Below are positions 25,949-55,354 of a DNA stretch of 64,000 bases, piece after piece. The DNA lies in the NCBI RefSeq assembly GCF_001701025.1, contig NZ_CP016793.1:1240001-1304000 (forward strand), in the 5' to 3' direction. Position 1 is the first letter of the stretch. Each line of letters begins with the position of its first letter. The notes under the pieces are model-generated. The model had not been told where the DNA came from. It saw nothing but the letters and a program-made list of their open reading frames with translations, and did no database searches. The stretch comes from Lentzea guizhouensis (GTDB lineage Bacteria; Actinomycetota; Actinomycetes; Mycobacteriales; Pseudonocardiaceae). A program made the position numbers and the translations under genes.

Positions 25949-27676
25949 TCAGCAAACGCCGTCGTCCCGCCACACGCCCCACTGGCCGGTGGTGCCGGGC
26001 TCCTCGCCCTGCGTCCACCACTTCGCCGTCCACTTGTGGCCGTTGTGCGACACCACGCTCGCGCCGCCGTAGGCCTTCGACCGCTCCCACGCGGGCTGGG
26101 TGCACGGGCCGGGCTGCGGGCCTTCGGTGTCCCACGGGACCTGCGGCGACTTGTAGAAGTTGATGCCCATGGTGGTCCAGCGCGGACCTTGGGCACCCAG
26201 CCGCACCTTGAAGCTGTCCCAGTTGTGCGTGGACCACGGCGACCAGCCGAGCTCGGCGTGCCCGGCGAGCCGCGGGAACGCCATGAACTCGAGGTCGCGC
26301 GAGGTCGCCAGCGTTTCCGTCCACAGTGGAGCTTCGACGCCGAGGACCGCCGTCTCCGGGACACCGCTGAGGTGCGTGCCGGGGTTCCAGCCGTAGGCGT
26401 CCTGGACCTCGATCAAGCCCGCCCACGACAGGCCCAGCGGCGTGCTGGAGTTGTACTTCTGGTCGATGTACGCCTTGTTCGCCGGCGACATGATGACCTT
26501 GTGGCCGCGGGCCGCCGCCGCCTGCACCACGGCGTTGGACGTGGTGGTGCCCCAGTACTGCGGGATGGTGGCGGTGTCGGTCGTGGTCTTCACGAACTCG
26601 TGCCAGCCGAGTGCGGTCTTGCCGTACTTCTTCACGATCGGCAGAACGCGGTTCATGAACGTCTGGTAGTCCGCGTCGGACGTCGAGTGCGCCTCGTCGC
26701 CGCCGATGTGGAAGTACGGGCCGGGCGTGAGCGCCGCGATCTCGCGCACCACGTCGTCGACGAACTGGTAGGTGATCTCCTTGTTCACGCACAGCGAGGA
26801 GTAGCCGACCTCGATGTCGGTGCGCAGCGGCGGGGCCTGGCCGTTGCAGTTGAGCTCCGCGTACGAGGCGAGGGCCGCGTTGGTGTGGCCGGGCAGGTCG
26901 ACCTCGGGGATCACCGTGATCTTGCGGGCGGCCGCGTACTGCACGATCTCGCTGTACTGCGCCTTGGTGTAGTAGCCGCCGGGACCGCCGCCGACCTGCG
27001 TGCTGCCGCCGTGCGTGGTGAGGCGCGGCCAGCTGTCCACCTGGATGCGCCAGCCCTGGTCGTCGGTCAGGTGCAGGTGGAAGTAGTTGATCTTGTACAG
27101 CGCCAGCTGGTCGATGTACCGCTTCACCGACGCGACCGGGTGGAAGTGGCGGGCCACGTCGAGCATCGAGGCGCGGTAGGAGAACCGCGGGTGGTCGACG
27201 ATCAGCGCGCCGGGCACGGTCCACGGCCCTGGCTGCACCGTCGTGCCCTCCACCTTGGCGGGCAACATCTGCCGCAGCGTCTGCACGCCCGCGAACAGGC
27301 CCTCCGAGGTGTTCGCCCTGATGACGACCGCACCGGCGGCCGCGTCGAGCTGGTAGCCCTGCTGACCGACGGACCCCGGGGCGCCCGTGAGCAGCAACGA
27401 GATGCCGTCGGTCGGCGTGCCGGTCGTGTCGGACACCGGCAGCGCGTAGCCGGTCGACGGCCGCAGCACGCCGGCCAGGAAGTTGCCCACGTCCCGGGCG
27501 GCGGGAGCGGTGTAGATCTTGGTGTTCGCGGTCAGCGAGTGCGTGACACCGGTCCTGGCCTGCACGGAGACCGGCACGGGGACGAGGCTCTGCAGAGGTT
27601 CCGCGGCCTGCGACTGCGCACTCACGGAGAGCGCGGCGGTCACGGTGACGACCACGGCGAGAACGCGAGTTCTCAC
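25949..27676 (-). CDS. Secreted GH20 beta-N-acetylhexosaminidase with C-terminal chitin-binding module
   Basis: 575 residues. A signal peptide (RVLAVVVTVTAALSVSAQSQA) is followed by a GH20b domain (about 30-160) and the GH20 barrel from HPRFSYRASMLDVARHF. The catalytic Asp-Glu pair is in YFHIGGDEAHS (D327, E328). The C-terminal ~45 residues (PAWERSKAYGGASVVSHNGH, then WTAKWWTQGEEPGT) form a CBM5/12 chitin-binding module. It removes terminal GlcNAc from chitin oligomers outside the cell. A DasR-like site lies 67 bp upstream, fitting GlcNAc-responsive control. Confidence 0.93.
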   Translation of the reverse strand: MRTRVLAVVVTVTAALSVSAQSQAAEPLQSLVPVPVSVQARTGVTHSLTANTKIYTAPAARDVGNFLAGVLRPSTGYALPVSDTTGTPTDGISLLLTGAPGSVGQQGYQLDAAAGAVVIRANTSEGLFAGVQTLRQMLPAKVEGTTVQPGPWTVPGALIVDHPRFSYRASMLDVARHFHPVASVKRYIDQLALYKINYFHLHLTDDQGWRIQVDSWPRLTTHGGSTQVGGGPGGYYTKAQYSEIVQYAAARKITVIPEVDLPGHTNAALASYAELNCNGQAPPLRTDIEVGYSSLCVNKEITYQFVDDVVREIAALTPGPYFHIGGDEAHSTSDADYQTFMNRVLPIVKKYGKTALGWHEFVKTTTDTATIPQYWGTTTSNAVVQAAAARGHKVIMSPANKAYIDQKYNSSTPLGLSWAGLIEVQDAYGWNPGTHLSGVPETAVLGVEAPLWTETLATSRDLEFMAFPRLAGHAELGWSPWSTHNWDSFKVRLGAQGPRWTTMGINFYKSPQVPWDTEGPQPGPCTQPAWERSKAYGGASVVSHNGHKWTAKWWTQGEEPGTTGQWGVWRDDGVC

Positions 27677-27740: not shown

Positions 27741-28520
27741 TCAATGGTCTGGGCCAATTATCGGCTGGAAGACCGCCTTCTTCGCAGCTCGGCGCAGTGT
27801 GCGCAGCAGGACCGGTCCGGTGACCGCGACCAGAACGGCGGTCGTGACGGCCCGGCCGAGGTCCCAGCCGAGCGAGGTGGCCAGGGTGAACGCGGCGAGC
27901 TTGACCAGGTTCTGCGCGGCGGAGGCGTCCGGGTCGAAGCTGACCGACGTGCCCTCGCCGACCGCGAACGGCCAGAACGACAGGTTGAGCAGGAACCCGT
28001 AGACGAGCGAGCTGACCACGCCGTACGCCGCGAGCAACGCGATCTCCGCCTTGCCGCGCCACTGCGGCAGCAGACCGGCCCCGAGCGCGACCCAGGCCGC
28101 GCCGAGCATCTGGTACGGCATCCACGGCCCGACGCCGCCGGTCAGCAGGGCGGAGGCGAACAACGTCGTGTTGCCGAGCACGAACCCGAAGCCGGGCCCG
28201 AACACCCGTCCGCCCAGCACCATCAGGAAGAAGATCGTCTCGATGCCCGCCGTGCCCGCGCCCAGCGGCCGGATCGCGGCACCCAGCGCGGACAGCACGC
28301 CGAGCATCGCGATGGCCTTGGAGTCCATGCCGTGGTCGCTCATCTCGGCGAGCACCACGGCCAGCACGACCGGCAGCAGCAGCGCGAACGTCCACGGCGC
28401 GTCACCGCCGTGCGCGATGTCGCTGGTGGGGGCGACGAACAGCGGCCAGGTGAACGCGGCCAGCCCGATGACGCCGGAGATCGTGAGCGCGACGGCTGAC
28501 CGCGGGCGGATCGCGATCAC
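27741..28520 (-). CDS. ECF transporter S component, probably cobalamin-specific
   Basis: 259 residues from the GTG at 28520, which overlaps the EcfA stop (GTGA). At least six hydrophobic segments are visible (for example ALTISGVIGLAAFTWPLFV, TFALLLPVVLAVVLAEM, YQMLGAAWVALGAGLLP, LLAAYGVVSSLVYGFLLNL). A basic C-terminus follows (LRTLRRAAKKAVFQP). The S component binds the vitamin in the membrane and docks on EcfT. It is the last gene of the six-gene operon behind a cobalamin riboswitch, which makes cobalamin (or a corrinoid precursor) the best guess. Confidence 0.82.
   Translation of the reverse strand: MIAIRPRSAVALTISGVIGLAAFTWPLFVAPTSDIAHGGDAPWTFALLLPVVLAVVLAEMSDHGMDSKAIAMLGVLSALGAAIRPLGAGTAGIETIFFLMVLGGRVFGPGFGFVLGNTTLFASALLTGGVGPWMPYQMLGAAWVALGAGLLPQWRGKAEIALLAAYGVVSSLVYGFLLNLSFWPFAVGEGTSVSFDPDASAAQNLVKLAAFTLATSLGWDLGRAVTTAVLVAVTGPVLLRTLRRAAKKAVFQPIIGPDH
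27743..27758. promoter_or_regulatory. DasR-like (dre) site upstream of the hexosaminidase
   Basis: AATGGTCTGGGCCAAT matches the dre consensus ACTGGTCTAGACCAGT at 12 of 16 positions, with both TGGTCT and CCA half-cores intact. It overlaps the last codons of the EcfS gene and lies 67 bp before the hexosaminidase start. DasR regulation of chitin and GlcNAc genes is established in Streptomyces; its action here is inference. Confidence 0.6.
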
Positions 28521-30073
28521 AGGGCCGCCTCGACGTCCTCGACGGTCAGCCACGGGCCGAGGACCTTGCTGACCTGCGGGGCGAACACCGGCGACGACGT
28601 CACGACCTCGCGTGCCGGGCCGTCCGCGACGACCTCGCCCTCGGCCAGCACGACGACGCGGGTGGCGTACTCCGCGACGAACTCGACGTCGTGGGTGGCG
28701 AGGACCGTTGCGCTGCCGAGGTTTCTGAGCACGGCGGCGAGGGCGGCCTTGGCCGGGTAGTCGAGGCCGCGGGTGGGTTCGTCGAGCAGCAGGACGTCCG
28801 GTGCGCCGGTCAGCATGATCGCCAGGACCAGGGCGAGCTTCTGGCCCTCGGACAGGTCGCGCGGGTGGGTGTCGTGGGGGACGTCGGCCAGGCCGTCCAG
28901 CAGCTTGCGGCACGTTCCGGCGGGTTGCCCGGACTCGTGGTCGGCCTGGGCGCACTCCTCGGCGACGGTTTCGAGGTAGAGGAGGTCGGCGGGCTGCTGG
29001 GGGACGAGGGCGACGACTTGGCGGCGTTGCGCGGGTTTGAGGGTCCTGGGGTCGGTGCCGCTCACTGTGACCGTGCCCGAGGTGCGTTTCCCGCTGCCCT
29101 GGGTGACCCAGAGGAGGCTGGACTTGCCGGAACCGTTGCGGCCCATGAGTGCGACGCGCTCGCCTTTGGCGACTTGGAGGGAAACGCCGCGCACGGCCGG
29201 TACGTCGCCGTACTTGACGACGATCTGGTTGGTCTCCAGCACGGTGTCGCCGTGTGTTGTCGTTGCTGCGGGTGGTTCGGTGAGACGGCTTTTGAGTTCT
29301 TTCGCCACACGGCGTGCGTCACGCACGGACACCGGCACCGGTTCCCACCCGGCCAACTGCGCGAGCCTGACCACGGGCGGCGCGACCGGAGCGTTGGCCA
29401 GCGTCTCGCCCACGGGTCCGATCTCGCCCGTCGGCAGCAAGAGCGCGCTGTCGGCGTACTGCGCAACGCGTTCAAGGCGGTGTTCGGCGATCACGACGGT
29501 CATGCCGAGGTCGTGCACAAGTCGTTGCACCGCCGCCAGGACGTCCTCCGCGGCACCGGGATCGAGCGCTGAGGTGGGTTCGTCGAGCACGAGCACCTTC
29601 GGGTGCGCCGTGAGTGCCGCGCCGATCGCGACCCGCTGCTGCTGCCCGCCGGACAGTGTCGCGAGTGGACGGTCACGGAGGTTCGCGATGCCGAGCAGGT
29701 CGAGGGTCTCTTCGACGCGCTTGCGCATCACGTCACCGGGCAGCCCCAGCGACTCCATCGAGTAGGCGAGCTCGTCCTCGACGTTGTCCGCCACGAACCC
29801 GGCCAGCGGGTCCTGCCCGACGAACCCGACCACGTCGGCGAGCTCGCGCGGTGGACGGGTCGCGGTGTCCCGGCCGTCGACCAGCACCCGCCCGGCGAGC
29901 GTGCCACCGCTGAAGTGCGGCACCAGACCGTTGATCGCGCGCAGGAACGTCGACTTCCCCGCACCCGTCCTGCCGACCACCAGGCACAGCTCGCCCTCGG
30001 CGATCTCCACTGAGAGGTTCCTGAGCACCGGCGCACCGGCATAGGTGATCGTGACGTCCTCGAACCTGATCAT
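28517..30073 (-). CDS. Fused double ATPase of the ECF transporter (EcfA-EcfA')
   Basis: 518 residues with two ABC ATPase domains in one chain. The first has Walker A GRTGAGKST near residue 34, LSGGQQQR, and VLVLDEPTSALD. The second (from about residue 270) has GRNGSGKSS, an unusual signature LSEGQKLAL instead of LSGGQ, and VLLLDEPTRGLD. It powers the ECF module. The ATG at 30073 overlaps the EcfT stop, and the stop overlaps EcfS. Fused EcfA proteins are known in actinobacteria; the altered second signature may mean the two sites differ in activity. Confidence 0.92.
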   Translation of the reverse strand: MIRFEDVTITYAGAPVLRNLSVEIAEGELCLVVGRTGAGKSTFLRAINGLVPHFSGGTLAGRVLVDGRDTATRPPRELADVVGFVGQDPLAGFVADNVEDELAYSMESLGLPGDVMRKRVEETLDLLGIANLRDRPLATLSGGQQQRVAIGAALTAHPKVLVLDEPTSALDPGAAEDVLAAVQRLVHDLGMTVVIAEHRLERVAQYADSALLLPTGEIGPVGETLANAPVAPPVVRLAQLAGWEPVPVSVRDARRVAKELKSRLTEPPAATTTHGDTVLETNQIVVKYGDVPAVRGVSLQVAKGERVALMGRNGSGKSSLLWVTQGSGKRTSGTVTVSGTDPRTLKPAQRRQVVALVPQQPADLLYLETVAEECAQADHESGQPAGTCRKLLDGLADVPHDTHPRDLSEGQKLALVLAIMLTGAPDVLLLDEPTRGLDYPAKAALAAVLRNLGSATVLATHDVEFVAEYATRVVVLAEGEVVADGPAREVVTSSPVFAPQVSKVLGPWLTVEDVEAAL

Positions 30074-31101
30074 CGTTCCCTCACGATCGCCACCGGCACC
30101 AACGCCACCAGCACCGCCAACGCCGGCACGAGCGGCAGTTCGGGCGCCTGCAGCGGGACCGTCGTGGGCGCCAGCGCCGGATCCCCCGAGAACACCAGCA
30201 CCACCGCCGCCGCCACCCCGCTCACCGCCACCCCGACCGCCCTGGCCGTCCACCGGTCCGGCCGGTACCGCGTCCTCGGCACCCTGCGCGCGCCGGTCCT
30301 CAGCCCCGCGACCGCCAGGAGACCACCGAGCGCGAGCAGCGGCCAGCCAGAGTAGGCGTCGGCGAGCAGCCCGTACATGCCGATGCAGAGCCCGAACAAC
30401 CCGGTGAGCACGAGCGCCCCGGTCAGCACCCGGTCCTTCCTGGTGATCCCCGCCGTCCTGCCGTACCCGCGCGAGTCCATCGACGCGGCCAGCACGAGCG
30501 ACCGGTCGAGGGCGTCCTCCAGCACCGGCACGAGCATCGTGCGAACCGCCCGCACCCCGCGTGCCGTGTCACCGCGCAGCCGGCGTGCTCTTCGCACTGC
30601 TCTTGCCGACGACACCAGTTGCGGCGCAACGGTCAGCGCCACCACCACGGCCACGCTCACCTCGTACAGCGCGGCGGGCAGTGAGCGCAGGAGGCGCTTC
30701 GGGTTGGCGAGGGCGTTGGCGGCGCCGACGCAGCTGAGGATGGTGGCGAGCAGCAGTCCCTGGTAGAGCGCGAAGACCAGTCCCTCGGCGGTGACCGGGC
30801 CACCGATGCGGATGCCCTGGGCCCAGTCGGGCAGCGGGACCTGCGGCAGGGTGAAGAGCGTGGTCGGCCCGCCGATGCCGCCGAGGAAGACGTGCAGCAG
30901 CACCCGCAGGCCGATGACGACCAGGCCGAACTTGAGGAAGACGCCGTAGGTGCCGGCCCACGGGGTGTTCGCGCGGCAGGTCACGACGACCACGCCCGCG
31001 ACGGCGAGGATCAGACCCAGCACCAACGGGTTGGTGGTGCGGCTGGCGGCGGTGGCCAGGCCCAGGGCCCAGAGCCACCACGCGCCGGAGTGAAGCCTCA
31101 C
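30070..31101 (-). CDS. ECF transporter transmembrane component EcfT
   Basis: 343 residues. Hydrophobic N-terminal core (about residues 10-130), then the cytosolic coupling helices with the conserved motif VLAASMDSRGYGR near residue 205-217, equivalent to the EcfT A-R-G coupling motif. A further C-terminal membrane region follows (about 230-335), longer than in minimal EcfT proteins. It links the ATPases to the S component. The GTG start overlaps the upstream stop (GTGA). Confidence 0.88.
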   Translation of the reverse strand: MRLHSGAWWLWALGLATAASRTTNPLVLGLILAVAGVVVVTCRANTPWAGTYGVFLKFGLVVIGLRVLLHVFLGGIGGPTTLFTLPQVPLPDWAQGIRIGGPVTAEGLVFALYQGLLLATILSCVGAANALANPKRLLRSLPAALYEVSVAVVVALTVAPQLVSSARAVRRARRLRGDTARGVRAVRTMLVPVLEDALDRSLVLAASMDSRGYGRTAGITRKDRVLTGALVLTGLFGLCIGMYGLLADAYSGWPLLALGGLLAVAGLRTGARRVPRTRYRPDRWTARAVGVAVSGVAAAVVLVFSGDPALAPTTVPLQAPELPLVPALAVLVALVPVAIVRER

Positions 31102-31874
31102 TCGGTCTCAGTGCGGCGCCGCCGCGCGACCAACGAACCAGCGACCACCAACGCCACGATCACCAGCAGGCCGGCCAACGTCCACACCCAGCTCGTCCCG
31201 GACTCCTCCACGACCTGCTGGGCCTTCTCCTCAACAGCGGCCGACTCCTCCGCGGCTGCTGTCGTGGTCCCCACAGCCGCACTGGACGAGGGCGCCACCG
31301 ACTCCGAAGTCGGTGCGACCGCGGAAGAACTCACCGGCGCCGGCGGAGTCGTGGTGACACCCGGTGTGGGCTGCGGCTGCGCGGCCGGCGGGTTCACCGG
31401 AGCGGGCACCTGCGGTTTCGGTGCGGGAGGCGGTGGTGCCGGAGCCGCGGGAGGCGCGATGCCCGGCTGCTCCCCCGCCCCGAACGCCCACCCCTCGACG
31501 CTCCCCCGCGGCGGGACACGAGAGGCCGCCCCCTGGTTGCTGTACGCCCAGGAACCCCCTGCCGGCGCGTGCCAGTACGACCAGTAGGCGGTGGCGGGCG
31601 AGGTGGTGACGCACTTGTCGACGTCGTTGCCCGGCTTGCCGTTGATGCGGCAGACGAACCCCTGCTGCCGGGTCGCGTAGGCGTACCCGAACCCGGCCGC
31701 CGACAACGCCGCCACCCCGGACGCCGGACTCCCCGGCGCACACCCCTGTTGCACACCACCGCCGAGCCCCCGGAAGTCGACGACCACGGTCACACCGTCA
31801 CACCCCGCCGCAAGAGCAGGCACCGGGACCGCCGAAGCGATCACCAGTGCCAGTGCGAGGAAAAGCCTCCTCAC
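31098..31874 (-). CDS. Secreted, membrane-anchored DUF4430-like protein (putative beta-domain, long form)
   Basis: 258 residues from the GTG at 31874. Signal peptide (FLALALVIASAVPVPALA), then a ~110-residue domain with the pattern GVAALSAAGFGYAYATRQQG, FVCRINGKPG, AYWSYWHAPAGGSWAYSN and SVEGWAFGAG. This resembles the DUF4430 beta-domain of intrinsic factor and transcobalamin. A Pro/Ser/Thr-rich linker (about 140-220) leads to one membrane helix (WVWTLAGLLVIVALVVAGSL) and the basic tail ARRRRTETE. It is anchored outside the membrane next to the ECF transporter and coupled to both neighbours. DUF4430 assignment is by pattern, not by search. Confidence 0.72.
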   Translation of the reverse strand: MRRLFLALALVIASAVPVPALAAGCDGVTVVVDFRGLGGGVQQGCAPGSPASGVAALSAAGFGYAYATRQQGFVCRINGKPGNDVDKCVTTSPATAYWSYWHAPAGGSWAYSNQGAASRVPPRGSVEGWAFGAGEQPGIAPPAAPAPPPPAPKPQVPAPVNPPAAQPQPTPGVTTTPPAPVSSSAVAPTSESVAPSSSAAVGTTTAAAEESAAVEEKAQQVVEESGTSWVWTLAGLLVIVALVVAGSLVARRRRTETE

Positions 31875-32287
31875 GGAGTGGCGCCCGGTGCGACGCCCGC
31901 GCCGAACGCCCAGCCCTCGACCGCGCCGGGAGCCGGGTTGTAGCTGCCGGCACCGGCCGAGCTGTAGGACCAGGAACCGCCGGGGGTGGCGTGCCAGTAC
32001 GACCAGTAGGCGCTGGTGGTGGGGACGGTGCACGGGTTCGGCAGCGAGTTGATCCGGCACACGAAACCGGCCTGGCGCGGCACGAACGAGTACGTGAAGC
32101 CCGCGCCGGTCAGCGCGGTGAGGCCGGTGGTGGGGTCGCCGACGGCACAGCCCGTCTGGACACCACCGCCGAGCGAGGCGAAGTCCACGACGACCTTGAC
32201 GCCCGCGCAGGATTCGGCGGAAGCAGCGGGCGCGACGACGAACGTGCTCGCGACCAGGGCGAGAACAGCGAGAATCCGGCGCATCAC
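31871..32287 (-). CDS. Secreted DUF4430-like protein (putative beta-domain, short form)
   Basis: 138 residues (GTG at 32287, or ATG one codon later). Signal peptide (RRILAVLALVASTFVVAPA, ASA cleavage site). The mature part parallels the long form: GVQTGCAVG, GLTALTGAGFTYSFVPRQAG, FVCRINSLPN, SAYWSYWHATPGGSWSYSS and AVEGWAFGAG. It has no anchor, so it is probably soluble or held by a partner. It overlaps the alpha-domain gene upstream and the long form downstream (GTGA), so it is made from the riboswitch-controlled transcript. Confidence 0.72.
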   Translation of the reverse strand: MMRRILAVLALVASTFVVAPAASAESCAGVKVVVDFASLGGGVQTGCAVGDPTTGLTALTGAGFTYSFVPRQAGFVCRINSLPNPCTVPTTSAYWSYWHATPGGSWSYSSAGAGSYNPAPGAVEGWAFGAGVAPGATP

Positions 32288-33477
32288 GCACCAACCTTCC
32301 GACGACGGGTAACCAGGACGAGCACGGCACCGGCGAGCACCGCGACAGAGCCGAACAGGGTCAGCGGGACCGCCTGGTCAGGACCGGTCGCGGCCAGCGG
32401 CGGGTCGACCGGCGCTTCCTCCGGACCACCGGGAGCAGGAGCGGGCGTGGTGGGAGCGGGTGTGGTGGGAACGGACGGCGGGGCCGCGCAGTCGATCGCG
32501 GGCACACCGTTCGCGGCACCGGCGAACGACACGTCCACGAGGCTCTTGCGGGCCAGCCCGAGCATCGCCTGGGTGGTCGCCCGGACAGCGCCGTAGACCT
32601 CGAAACCCGTTGCGTCGTAGGCGATCGCGCCCCGAGCCGCCTCCGGCCCGGTGCACCCGACCTGCAACGACCTCAGGTACGCCACGGCCTTGTCCGCTGC
32701 CTCCGCACGACCACCGGCGACGAGCGCGCCGACCGCGAGACCGGTGCTGTTCGCGTTCGAGCCCGACAGAGCCGACGGGAAACCGCCATCGGCCTGCTGC
32801 TGCGACGCCAGCCACGCCAGCGCACGCACCGAAGCCGTCTTCTCCCCCGCCGCCTGCAACGCCTGCACCACGATCGCGGTTCCGTCCACATCGGACTTGC
32901 AGGTCGGCTCCCCGAACGAGATCGGGAACCCGCCGTCGGGGCACTGCGTCGAGACCTGGAACGCGACCGGCTTCGCCACCGGCTGCGCGGCGCGCGTCAA
33001 CGTGATGATCGCCAGCGCCTGCGTGAACGCGTTGGTCTGGTCGCCCCCGGGCTCGGTGCGGTCGAGGTAGCGGCCGGCCCCGTCCTGCAGCGCGGCCAGC
33101 CGGTCCAGCAGGTCGACACCTGCGAAGTCATGCGGGTCGGTGCCCAGCGCCTGCGCCACCAGGGCCAGCTTCACCAGGCCCCCGACGTAGGACTCGGCCT
33201 CGCCGTCACCGGCGAAGTACGAGAGCTGGCCGGGTTCGGCGAGCCACGCGGCGGCCTTGACGGCCGTCGACTTCCCCACCCCGGCGGCGGCCAGGCCGTA
33301 GACGCCGTCCGCGGTCAGGCCGTGGTCGACGAGGTCCGGCCCCTTCACCAGGTGGGTGCCGTCCACGAACTGGCCGGCCAGCCAGGTTCCCGCTGACGGC
33401 TCAGCCGCGGCCTGCGCCTGCGGTGTCGCCACGAGCGCGGCCGCCACGAACGCGACCAGCGCGGATTTCCGGATCAC
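32284..33477 (-). CDS. Cell-wall-anchored alpha/alpha-barrel protein, intrinsic-factor/transcobalamin alpha-domain-like
   Basis: 397 residues from the GTG at 33477 (GGGGGA 6 bp upstream). Signal peptide 1-23. Residues ~28-330 carry prenyltransferase/squalene-oxidase-type repeats (QCPDGGFP at 178-185, QADGGFPSALSGSNANSTGL from 228, AYLRSLQVGC near 276-285), the fold of the cobalamin-binding alpha-domain of intrinsic factor. Four cysteines (179, 193, 285, 330) could pair. A Pro-rich linker precedes LAATG (361-365), a class E sortase-type LAxTG signal, then a membrane helix (371-390) and RRRK. It is first in the operon behind the cobalamin riboswitch, so a corrinoid-binding role is likely. Terpene-cyclase chemistry is unlikely, since no DxDD motif is seen. 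Confidence 0.82.
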   Translation of the reverse strand: MIRKSALVAFVAAALVATPQAQAAAEPSAGTWLAGQFVDGTHLVKGPDLVDHGLTADGVYGLAAAGVGKSTAVKAAAWLAEPGQLSYFAGDGEAESYVGGLVKLALVAQALGTDPHDFAGVDLLDRLAALQDGAGRYLDRTEPGGDQTNAFTQALAIITLTRAAQPVAKPVAFQVSTQCPDGGFPISFGEPTCKSDVDGTAIVVQALQAAGEKTASVRALAWLASQQQADGGFPSALSGSNANSTGLAVGALVAGGRAEAADKAVAYLRSLQVGCTGPEAARGAIAYDATGFEVYGAVRATTQAMLGLARKSLVDVSFAGAANGVPAIDCAAPPSVPTTPAPTTPAPAPGGPEEAPVDPPLAATGPDQAVPLTLFGSVAVLAGAVLVLVTRRRKVGA

Positions 33478-33514
33478 TGCGCTTCCCCCTGCCCCGCTGT
33501 CCTCGACGGGTCGA

Positions 33515-33645
33515 TGGAGCTACCGCGCGCCACGGGCATTCGGACTATCACCGTTGCGGGTCAGCGCCGGAGTTCCACCGGCTTCCCCCGCGGCGTGCGG
33601 ATGCTGTTGTCCCCTGGATCGTGCGGGAGGAGCCACCTCGAGTCA
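33515..33645 (-). ncRNA. Cobalamin (adenosylcobalamin) riboswitch
   Basis: Minus-strand leader of the operon. The conserved core is present: GGGAAGCCGGTGG (33575-33587), paired repeat CCGG either side of TGGAACT, then GCTGACCCGCAACGG (33551-33565), TGA, and the B12-box-like TAGTCCGAATGCCCG (33533-33547). These match the RF00174 consensus order GGGAA..GGTG-AA-TCC..GCTG-CCCGCAAC..AGTC..G. The 5' part starts around GAGGTGGCTCC. The ribosome site of the first gene is about 45 bases further on. Outer boundaries are approximate. Confidence 0.88.
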
Positions 33646-34845: not shown

Positions 34846-37047
<2,202 letters not shown>

Positions 37048-54388: not shown

Positions 54389-55354
54389 ATGCAGAGACTC
54401 ATCGTCGCCGCCGTCGTCGGCGCCACTCTCCTCACCTCCGTCCCCGCGCACGCCGGCACCGCCCATCGGGTCGACGCCGCCGCCGGGTGGCTCGCGAGAC
54501 AGATGGCCGGCGGTGAGCGGCTGGAGACCGAGTTCGGTGGCGTGAAGTACCCGGACCAGGGCCTGACCATCGACGCCATCTTCGCCTTCGCGGCGGCGAA
54601 GGACGCCGACGACTACGCCGACCGTGCCATCGCATGGCTGGCGAAGCCCGAGATCGCCGACGCCTACCTCGGCACGGACGGCGAGTCGTACGCCGGTGCG
54701 CACGCCAAGCTCGCCGTCGCCGCACGGGTGAAGGGCCAGAACCCGCGCGCGTTCGCCGGACGTGACCTGGTCGCCGGCCTCAAGGCGCTGCAGGCGCCGT
54801 CCGGCCGCTACACCGACCGCTCGCAGTTCGGTGACTTCTCCAACGCCTTCACGCAGTCGTACGCGGTGTTCGCCCTGAAGGACACCAAGGCGGCCTCGTA
54901 CCTCGCGGGCAGCCAGTGCCCCGACGGGGGCTTCCCGGTCACGTTCGAGACCTCGCCGTGCGTCAGCGACGTCGACGCCACCGCGATCGTGGTCCAGGCC
55001 CTGCGCACCGCCGGTCGGCCGACGGGACGCGCCGTGACGTGGCTGGAGTCGAAGCAGCAGGCCGACGGCGGGTTCCCGAGCGCGCAGGCGGGTTCGAACG
55101 CCAACAGCACGGGCCTGGCCGCCCAGGTGCTGCGCGGTGAGCGCGCGGCCAAGGCCCGCGACTACCTGAGGTCGTTGCAGGTCGGATGTGACGCACCGGT
55201 CGCGGACCGGGGTGCGGTCGCGTTCGACGCGGCCGGTTTCGACCCGGCGACCGCGACCCGTGCGACCGCGCAGGCCGTGCTCGGGCTGACCCACGCGAAC
55301 GTCGCGACGCTGCGCGGTGGTGGCCGGGACGGTGCGCCCGCACTGCGCTGCTGA
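54389..55354 (+). CDS. Secreted alpha/alpha-barrel protein, paralogue of the riboswitch-controlled alpha-domain protein
   Basis: 321 residues from the ATG at 54389. Signal peptide (RLIVAAVVGATLLTSVPAHA), then the same repeats as the protein at 32284-33477: SQCPDGGFPVTF, VSDVDATAIVVQALR, QQADGGFPSAQAGSNANST, YLRSLQVGCDAPVADRGA and a closing GAPALRC. It lacks the Pro-rich linker, LAxTG signal and membrane helix, so it should be released. There is no riboswitch in the 48-bp gap to the divergent DinB gene. Possibly a soluble cobalamin-binding (haptocorrin-like) protein, but the ligand is inference. Confidence 0.78.
   Translation: MQRLIVAAVVGATLLTSVPAHAGTAHRVDAAAGWLARQMAGGERLETEFGGVKYPDQGLTIDAIFAFAAAKDADDYADRAIAWLAKPEIADAYLGTDGESYAGAHAKLAVAARVKGQNPRAFAGRDLVAGLKALQAPSGRYTDRSQFGDFSNAFTQSYAVFALKDTKAASYLAGSQCPDGGFPVTFETSPCVSDVDATAIVVQALRTAGRPTGRAVTWLESKQQADGGFPSAQAGSNANSTGLAAQVLRGERAAKARDYLRSLQVGCDAPVADRGAVAFDAAGFDPATATRATAQAVLGLTHANVATLRGGGRDGAPALRC

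Follow-up and report, generated by a model that had tools for sequence, protein, structure and literature searches.

In the actinobacterium Lentzea guizhouensis, an operon of six overlapping genes behind a cobalamin riboswitch core probably constitutes an uptake system for corrinoids (vitamin B12), consisting of a carrier that is split into separate alpha and beta proteins and of a dedicated importer of the energy-coupling factor (ECF) type. The operon is situated in a stretch of 64,000 nt (GCF_001701025.1, NZ_CP016793.1:1,240,001-1,304,000, forward strand) of the 9,997,872-base genome; this whole stretch is referred to as the window, and all positions are window positions. Little is known about how thick-walled bacteria capture corrinoids when these are scarce and the importer is of the ECF class, which lacks a classical substrate-binding protein, or about where the animal B12 carriers, i.e., transcobalamin (TC), intrinsic factor (IF), and haptocorrin, came from; the locus links both questions and makes both testable.

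On the minus strand, the riboswitch is followed by alpha, beta1, beta2, EcfT, EcfA, and EcfS, the six open reading frames (ORFs) being joined by GTGA/ATGA overlaps, and a second alpha gene lies elsewhere in the window:

33526..33597, minus strand: aptamer of an AdoCbl-II (adenosylcobalamin) cobalamin riboswitch, core of the operon leader (RF01689 match)
32284..33477, minus strand: alpha, secreted alpha/alpha-toroid protein of 397 amino acids (aa) with LAATG sortase signal, C-terminal membrane segment, and basic tail (PF13243, sorting signal, AlphaFold/Foldseek/VIA)
31871..32287, minus strand: beta1, secreted protein of 138 aa without anchor, transcobalamin-type beta domain by predicted fold
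31098..31874, minus strand: beta2, second beta domain, 258 aa, with Pro-rich linker and C-terminal membrane anchor (identity to beta1, sequence reading)
30070..31101, minus strand: EcfT, transmembrane component of the ECF module (PF02361)
28517..30073, minus strand: EcfA, two fused ATPase domains (two PF00005 stretches)
27741..28520, minus strand: EcfS, substrate-specific component (PF12822 below cut-off, conserved position)
54389..55354, plus strand: second alpha, 321 aa, without anchor (49% identity to alpha)

The leader matches RF01689 with 42.6 bits (E 7e-7; gathering score 36.5), which is the sole match to this family in the whole genome, and RF00174 with 30.3 bits, slightly under the cut-off of 31.5. 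As the folding energy of this stretch lies within that of shuffled sequences (z 0.08), the riboswitch assignment is carried by the covariance-model match and by conservation, not by folding energy; a scan for promoters and terminators yielded no more than shuffles did. Concerning the transporter genes, EcfT matches CbiQ (PF02361; 33.5 bits, cut-off 25, E 4e-8) and EcfA matches ABC_tran (PF00005) twice (184.7 bits), whereas EcfS matches ECF_trnsprt (PF12822) under the cut-off (26 of 30.7 bits, E 1e-5), such that its identity is based on this match together with its conserved position, i.e., it adjoins EcfA in the relatives too. Judged from these matches, EcfT, the EcfA pair, and EcfS form a dedicated ECF module in one operon.

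Alpha possesses a signal peptide (signal peptides were read by eye, and anchors were assigned with a simple hydropathy and motif script), matches SQHop_cyclase_C (PF13243, E 2e-7), and carries an LAATG sortase signal that scores 17.5 bits with TIGR01167 (cut-off 15.9) and 25 with NF058582 (cut-off 27). Its AlphaFold model, built with 77 sequences, is an alpha/alpha toroid (predicted local distance difference test score 89.7). This toroid is common to cyclases, prenyltransferases, and transcobalamin, and the modelled structure alone cannot choose the role of alpha; in a Foldseek search, farnesyltransferases surround the transcobalamin entries, which have ranks 27, 31, and 46 (E 3.2e-5 to 1e-4). 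Concerning residues, all 99 relatives have Asp198, Asn243, Gln153, and Gln303, and 94 have Asn241. A profile of 25 diverse alphas aligned by hhalign to the carrier alpha domains (human, rat, and bovine transcobalamin, intrinsic factor, and haptocorrin) scored 40.7 over 186 columns (hhalign probability 52, P 1.4e-4), whereas 60 column shuffles reached at most 23.2 and the reversed profile 16.3. The alignments pair Asp198 with TC Asp176 and IF Asp153, and Gln303 with TC Gln273 and IF Gln252; in one of them (A1), Asn241 is paired with TC Asn224 and IF Asp204. These six carrier residues are B12 contacts; our literature searches documented binding of B12 for TC His173 only.

The structure model of beta1 has the fold of the B12-carrier beta domain. 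Beta2 is 57% identical to it; as read from the sequence, beta2 is membrane-anchored, whereas beta1 has a signal peptide only. No Pfam model, including PF14478 (DUF4430), was found for beta1 at E up to 1 and no sensible one for beta2 at E up to 5, and PF14478 has no match in the genome at E 0.001; calling these proteins DUF4430-like is therefore based on fold and context. A beta profile found no B12 carrier among PDB sequences. The closest named relative of beta1 (88% identity) is from Lentzea. Furthermore, alpha and both betas match parts of the NCBIfam families "SCO2321 family membrane protein" and "SCO2322 family protein" under the curated cut-offs (104.4 of 300 for the family of alpha, 27.0 and 30.5 of 85 for the betas); these families are thus near the window proteins, and their names give locus tags only. 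An original prediction, made from the window sequence, had described a cobalamin riboswitch core followed by six overlapping minus-strand genes, among them EcfT, a double EcfA, and EcfS, and an alpha/alpha-barrel protein bearing an LAxTG motif, all of which is borne out by the matches, ORFs, and model given above. Its two secreted DUF4430-like proteins are recovered in part: the fold of beta1 agrees, whereas PF14478 is not matched and beta2 is tethered to the membrane instead of being freely secreted.

The same gene company recurs in other genomes. The best 80 of 325 beta relatives, ranked by beta similarity, were taken as named loci (beta is thus present in all 80 by construction), and alpha, beta, and Ecf genes were detected in the loci with profiles built in this analysis. 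Alpha is present in 76 of the 80, EcfT or EcfS in 67, and alpha, beta, and ECF genes together in 65 (44/48 among loci longer than 18.2 kb). In 67 of the named loci (43 of the 48 long ones), a riboswitch core precedes an alpha or beta gene by no more than 1 kb, and of the 86 cores found, 85 are followed within 1 kb by one of the five genes; with a core pattern looser than the one used for these counts, a single pass over base-shuffled sequence (1.28 Mb) gave 3 matches. An Rfam cobalamin riboswitch was found at threshold in 8/8 scanned named loci and 4/8 scanned distant ones. In a phylum-wide sample, a beta match at E 0.001 was obtained in 51 of 396 genomes, some of these matches being short; 20 distant regions, chosen by us from 20 of these genomes, contain alpha in 18 cases, a core in 14, and alpha, beta, and ECF genes together in 14. 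The row of L012 in alignment A3 and L012:11334-12435 were left out, being out of frame. One beta gene, at least 51% alike to actinobacterial ones, was found on a contig assigned to a metagenome-assembled genome of Rhodobacteraceae, possibly a binning error or a transfer (L075).

In many loci, two alpha-beta pairs, one soluble and one anchored, occur next to the ECF genes, and several of these loci have two riboswitch cores. Among the named loci, an anchor is present in 62 of the 66 betas that immediately precede EcfT, compared with 8 of the 62 remaining betas (Fisher P 2e-22, kinship ignored). The window agrees with this pattern, as it holds an anchored alpha and beta2, a soluble beta1, and, at a distance, the soluble second alpha, which is similar to alpha across most of its length; no riboswitch was found upstream of this second alpha, and it is a possible soluble partner of beta1.

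A DUF4430 domain has been reported at the C-terminus of transcobalamins (PMC4350170). PF14478 is matched in 12 of 80 genomes, the genome of the window not being among them, and 10 regions from 10 of these (other Actinomycetota; L141-L150) were inspected. An EcfS profile match lies beside the DUF4430 gene in nine of them, an alpha profile match in five, and a cobalamin-class riboswitch is present in seven; in a sixth region, L147, the protein between riboswitch and DUF4430 gene is a weak toroid match (23.3 bits, cut-off 26.5). These regions differ from the window in their PF14478-type beta and in gene order, yet since EcfS family, alpha toroid, and cobalamin riboswitch recur, the divergent beta of the window and the canonical DUF4430 proteins keep the same gene company. 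In three of the regions (L145 3933-6491, L146 4253-6859, L148 3206-6121), a secreted-looking beta-propeller protein of pyrroloquinoline quinone (PQQ) type is situated between the cobalamin riboswitch and the DUF4430-ECF-alpha genes, which we take to be reminiscent of BtuG-like propellers.

Gene fusions tie alpha both to beta and to the transporter. In L122 (5483-7834, plus strand), alpha, beta, and three S-layer homology (SLH) repeats follow a riboswitch core in a single frame, in the domain order of intrinsic factor; alpha and beta were called there with our own profiles (E 3.6e-51 and 1.1e-21), Pfam detected SLH and neither toroid nor beta, and no ECF transporter genes were found within the 15 kb of this locus. 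Five Kitasatospora and Streptomyces loci (L013, L019, L021, L025, L026) show the fused order beta-alpha-alpha-sortase signal. In L149 (920-3151, minus strand), EcfS runs into an alpha toroid without a stop, forming a frame of 744 aa with a hydrophobic segment between the two parts, so that an S component is joined to the presumptive extracellular capture domain.

Following these observations, we propose that the alpha/alpha toroid and the transcobalamin-type beta, as separate proteins, would together enclose a corrinoid at their interface, in the manner of intrinsic factor and transcobalamin, and that the captured corrinoid would be passed via EcfS to the dedicated ECF importer. The soluble set (beta1 and, in many genomes, also a soluble alpha) would scavenge, and the anchored set (sortase-linked alpha and membrane-tethered beta2) would take over the corrinoid next to the importer. 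Abundant adenosylcobalamin would, via the riboswitch, turn the operon off.

The intrinsic-factor-like reading of the original prediction is thus supported as a model: the small protein that was modelled has no unrelated fold, and the linkage to ECF genes is conserved. A split carrier applies to the genome of the window, whereas a single-chain form exists elsewhere (L122). The grouping of the barrel with terpene cyclases, considered there as the contrary outcome, is true of the structural ranking, whereas the toroid is shared with transcobalamin and the cyclase motif DxDD is incomplete in the relatives.

Several results weigh against the proposed uptake system. In Foldseek, squalene-hopene cyclase and drimenyl diphosphate synthase are the top structures for alpha (best E 5.3e-8), and among the 50 entries listed by VIA (cyclases, GH76 mannanases, epimerases), a B12 carrier is absent. 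Profile A1, built from closer relatives of the window alpha, matches the carriers at P 0.035 only. PF01122 gave no match to the window alpha at E up to 1 and weak ones, not over the cut-off, in 6 of the 25 diverse alphas (best E 0.045). Six distant toroids from DUF4430 loci have Asp198 in all six cases and Gln303 in two, and one of them, in L146 and outside the set of 99 relatives, contains DPDD. For beta, Foldseek E-values are modest (best 0.019), and the hhalign score against the carrier beta domains (16.8) lies within shuffles (maximum 18.0). In the 20 distant regions, betas are anchored in 12 of 15 cases before EcfT and in 2 of 4 others, which is not significant (P 0.27). All locus counts and the Fisher P are uncorrected for common descent. 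Finally, the host genome contains CobN, and the host probably makes its own B12, so that the uptake system would serve salvage. A further cobalamin riboswitch lies around 160 bases upstream of the CobN match (G000:C1:5294257-5297970, plus strand), and the host's own synthesis may also be under B12 control; this riboswitch is one of six further cobalamin riboswitches that, like seven B12-binding-domain matches, exceed the cut-offs in this genome. In Micromonospora phaseoli (L043 1042-7515, plus strand), riboswitch-preceded genes for a ribonucleotide reductase and a B12-independent methionine synthase (MetE) are situated just upstream of the alpha-beta-ECF cluster.

Of the other explanations, it is unlikely that only beta binds the corrinoid, as an accessory to a corrinoid-importing ECF module, with alpha as a scaffold or wall tether without ligand pocket. 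Two loci (L106 7656-8621, minus strand; L116 7693-8850, plus strand) possess a riboswitch core, beta, and ECF genes without a detected alpha and possibly represent a beta-only version, and the closest structures of alpha are not carriers; however, the near-constant presence of alpha in named loci and distant regions, its invariant polar residues, and the fusions of L122 (in carrier order) and L149 speak against this reading. Quite improbable is cobalt, a cobalt chelate, or a B12 precursor as the substrate instead of an intact corrinoid, the riboswitch reflecting general B12 economy. EcfT matches CbiQ of cobalt transporters, cobalt uptake genes are also governed by cobalamin riboswitches, and neither the EcfS protein nor its profile has a match among PDB sequences at E up to 10, such that no relative of known substrate is detectable for EcfS among solved structures; however, CbiQ is the general EcfT family, EcfS has no Pfam match to CbiM, and the predicted beta fold is that of B12 carriers. 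A terpene cyclase- or glycosidase-type enzyme, the operon then serving wall or lipid chemistry under B12 control, was set aside as highly improbable: alpha's nearest structures are cyclases, followed by GH76 and epimerases, and cyclases are also reached by sequence profiles via shared repeats (E 2.6e-18 and 4.9e-28). However, at position 199 all 99 relatives carry A, T, S, or G instead of the third DxDD Asp, an extracellular location of alpha follows from its signal peptide and sortase anchor, and beta fold and ECF linkage likewise speak against such an enzyme.

Compared with intrinsic factor, transcobalamin, and haptocorrin, the proposed carrier shares the toroid alpha domain, the beta-domain fold in the beta1 model, the extracellular location, the aligned conserved polar residues, and, in the single chain of L122, the domain order. 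There are also differences: The domains are encoded by separate genes in the window and anchored to wall or membrane, whereas the carriers are one chain; the vertebrate carriers use receptor endocytosis, whereas the window proteins share their operon with an importer; and the window beta has no significant sequence match to them, corrinoid binding by the window proteins being predicted. In BtuF-BtuCD and BtuB/BtuG, extracytoplasmic capture proteins likewise feed an ATP-driven B12 importer, although with unrelated folds and another transporter class. Import of cobalamin by an ECF transporter is described for Lactobacillus delbrueckii (ECF-CbrT, PMC5997447), which thus resembles the window system in transporter type and predicted substrate; there, however, a shared ECF module and an nrdJ-cbrS-cbrT-pduO cluster are found, whereas in the window a dedicated EcfT, double EcfA, EcfS, alpha, and beta stand under one riboswitch, and the EcfS profile has no relative in the PDB. 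In lactobacilli, a DUF4430 protein is mentioned near rtpR in a proteome paper, and a table in the same source, as far as accessible, labels an "Additional lipoprotein component of putative cobalamin ECF transporter" without stating there whether this is the DUF4430 protein (PMC9963975). Such surface proteins are hence linked to genes for cobalamin ECF transporters or B12-dependent enzymes in that source, whose accessible part describes neither an alpha partner nor a mechanism. No description of a bacterial two-part alpha-beta B12 carrier was found in the open-access literature, an earlier account elsewhere being possible; ECF vitamin importers being known, their combination with extracellular carriers of intrinsic-factor type would constitute a new variant.

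The models suggest a bacterial counterpart of animal B12 capture, with surface proteins similar to carrier halves in soil actinobacteria. A more far-reaching reading, somewhat less likely than not, is that actinobacteria have a complete counterpart of the animal carrier pathway, in which a diffusible two-part carrier would collect corrinoids outside the cell and bring them to a two-part receptor, tethered to wall and membrane, at an ECF importer. In this reading, the carriers of animals would also derive from bacterial alpha-beta proteins or have a common ancestor with them, L122 being a single-chain example with the same order of domains. If the uptake system is real, protein families that so far carry only a locus tag or the label of a domain of unknown function would gain a function, and models of how B12 is shared in soil would gain corrinoid scavenging as a further route.

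Concerning the neighbourhood of the operon, an ORF of 721 aa upstream of it (34846-37011, minus strand) resembles by eye a two-domain terpene synthase of geosmin-synthase type. Just downstream of EcfS (25949-27676, minus strand), a secreted ORF of 575 aa appears by eye to be a GH20 beta-hexosaminidase with a chitin-binding tail.

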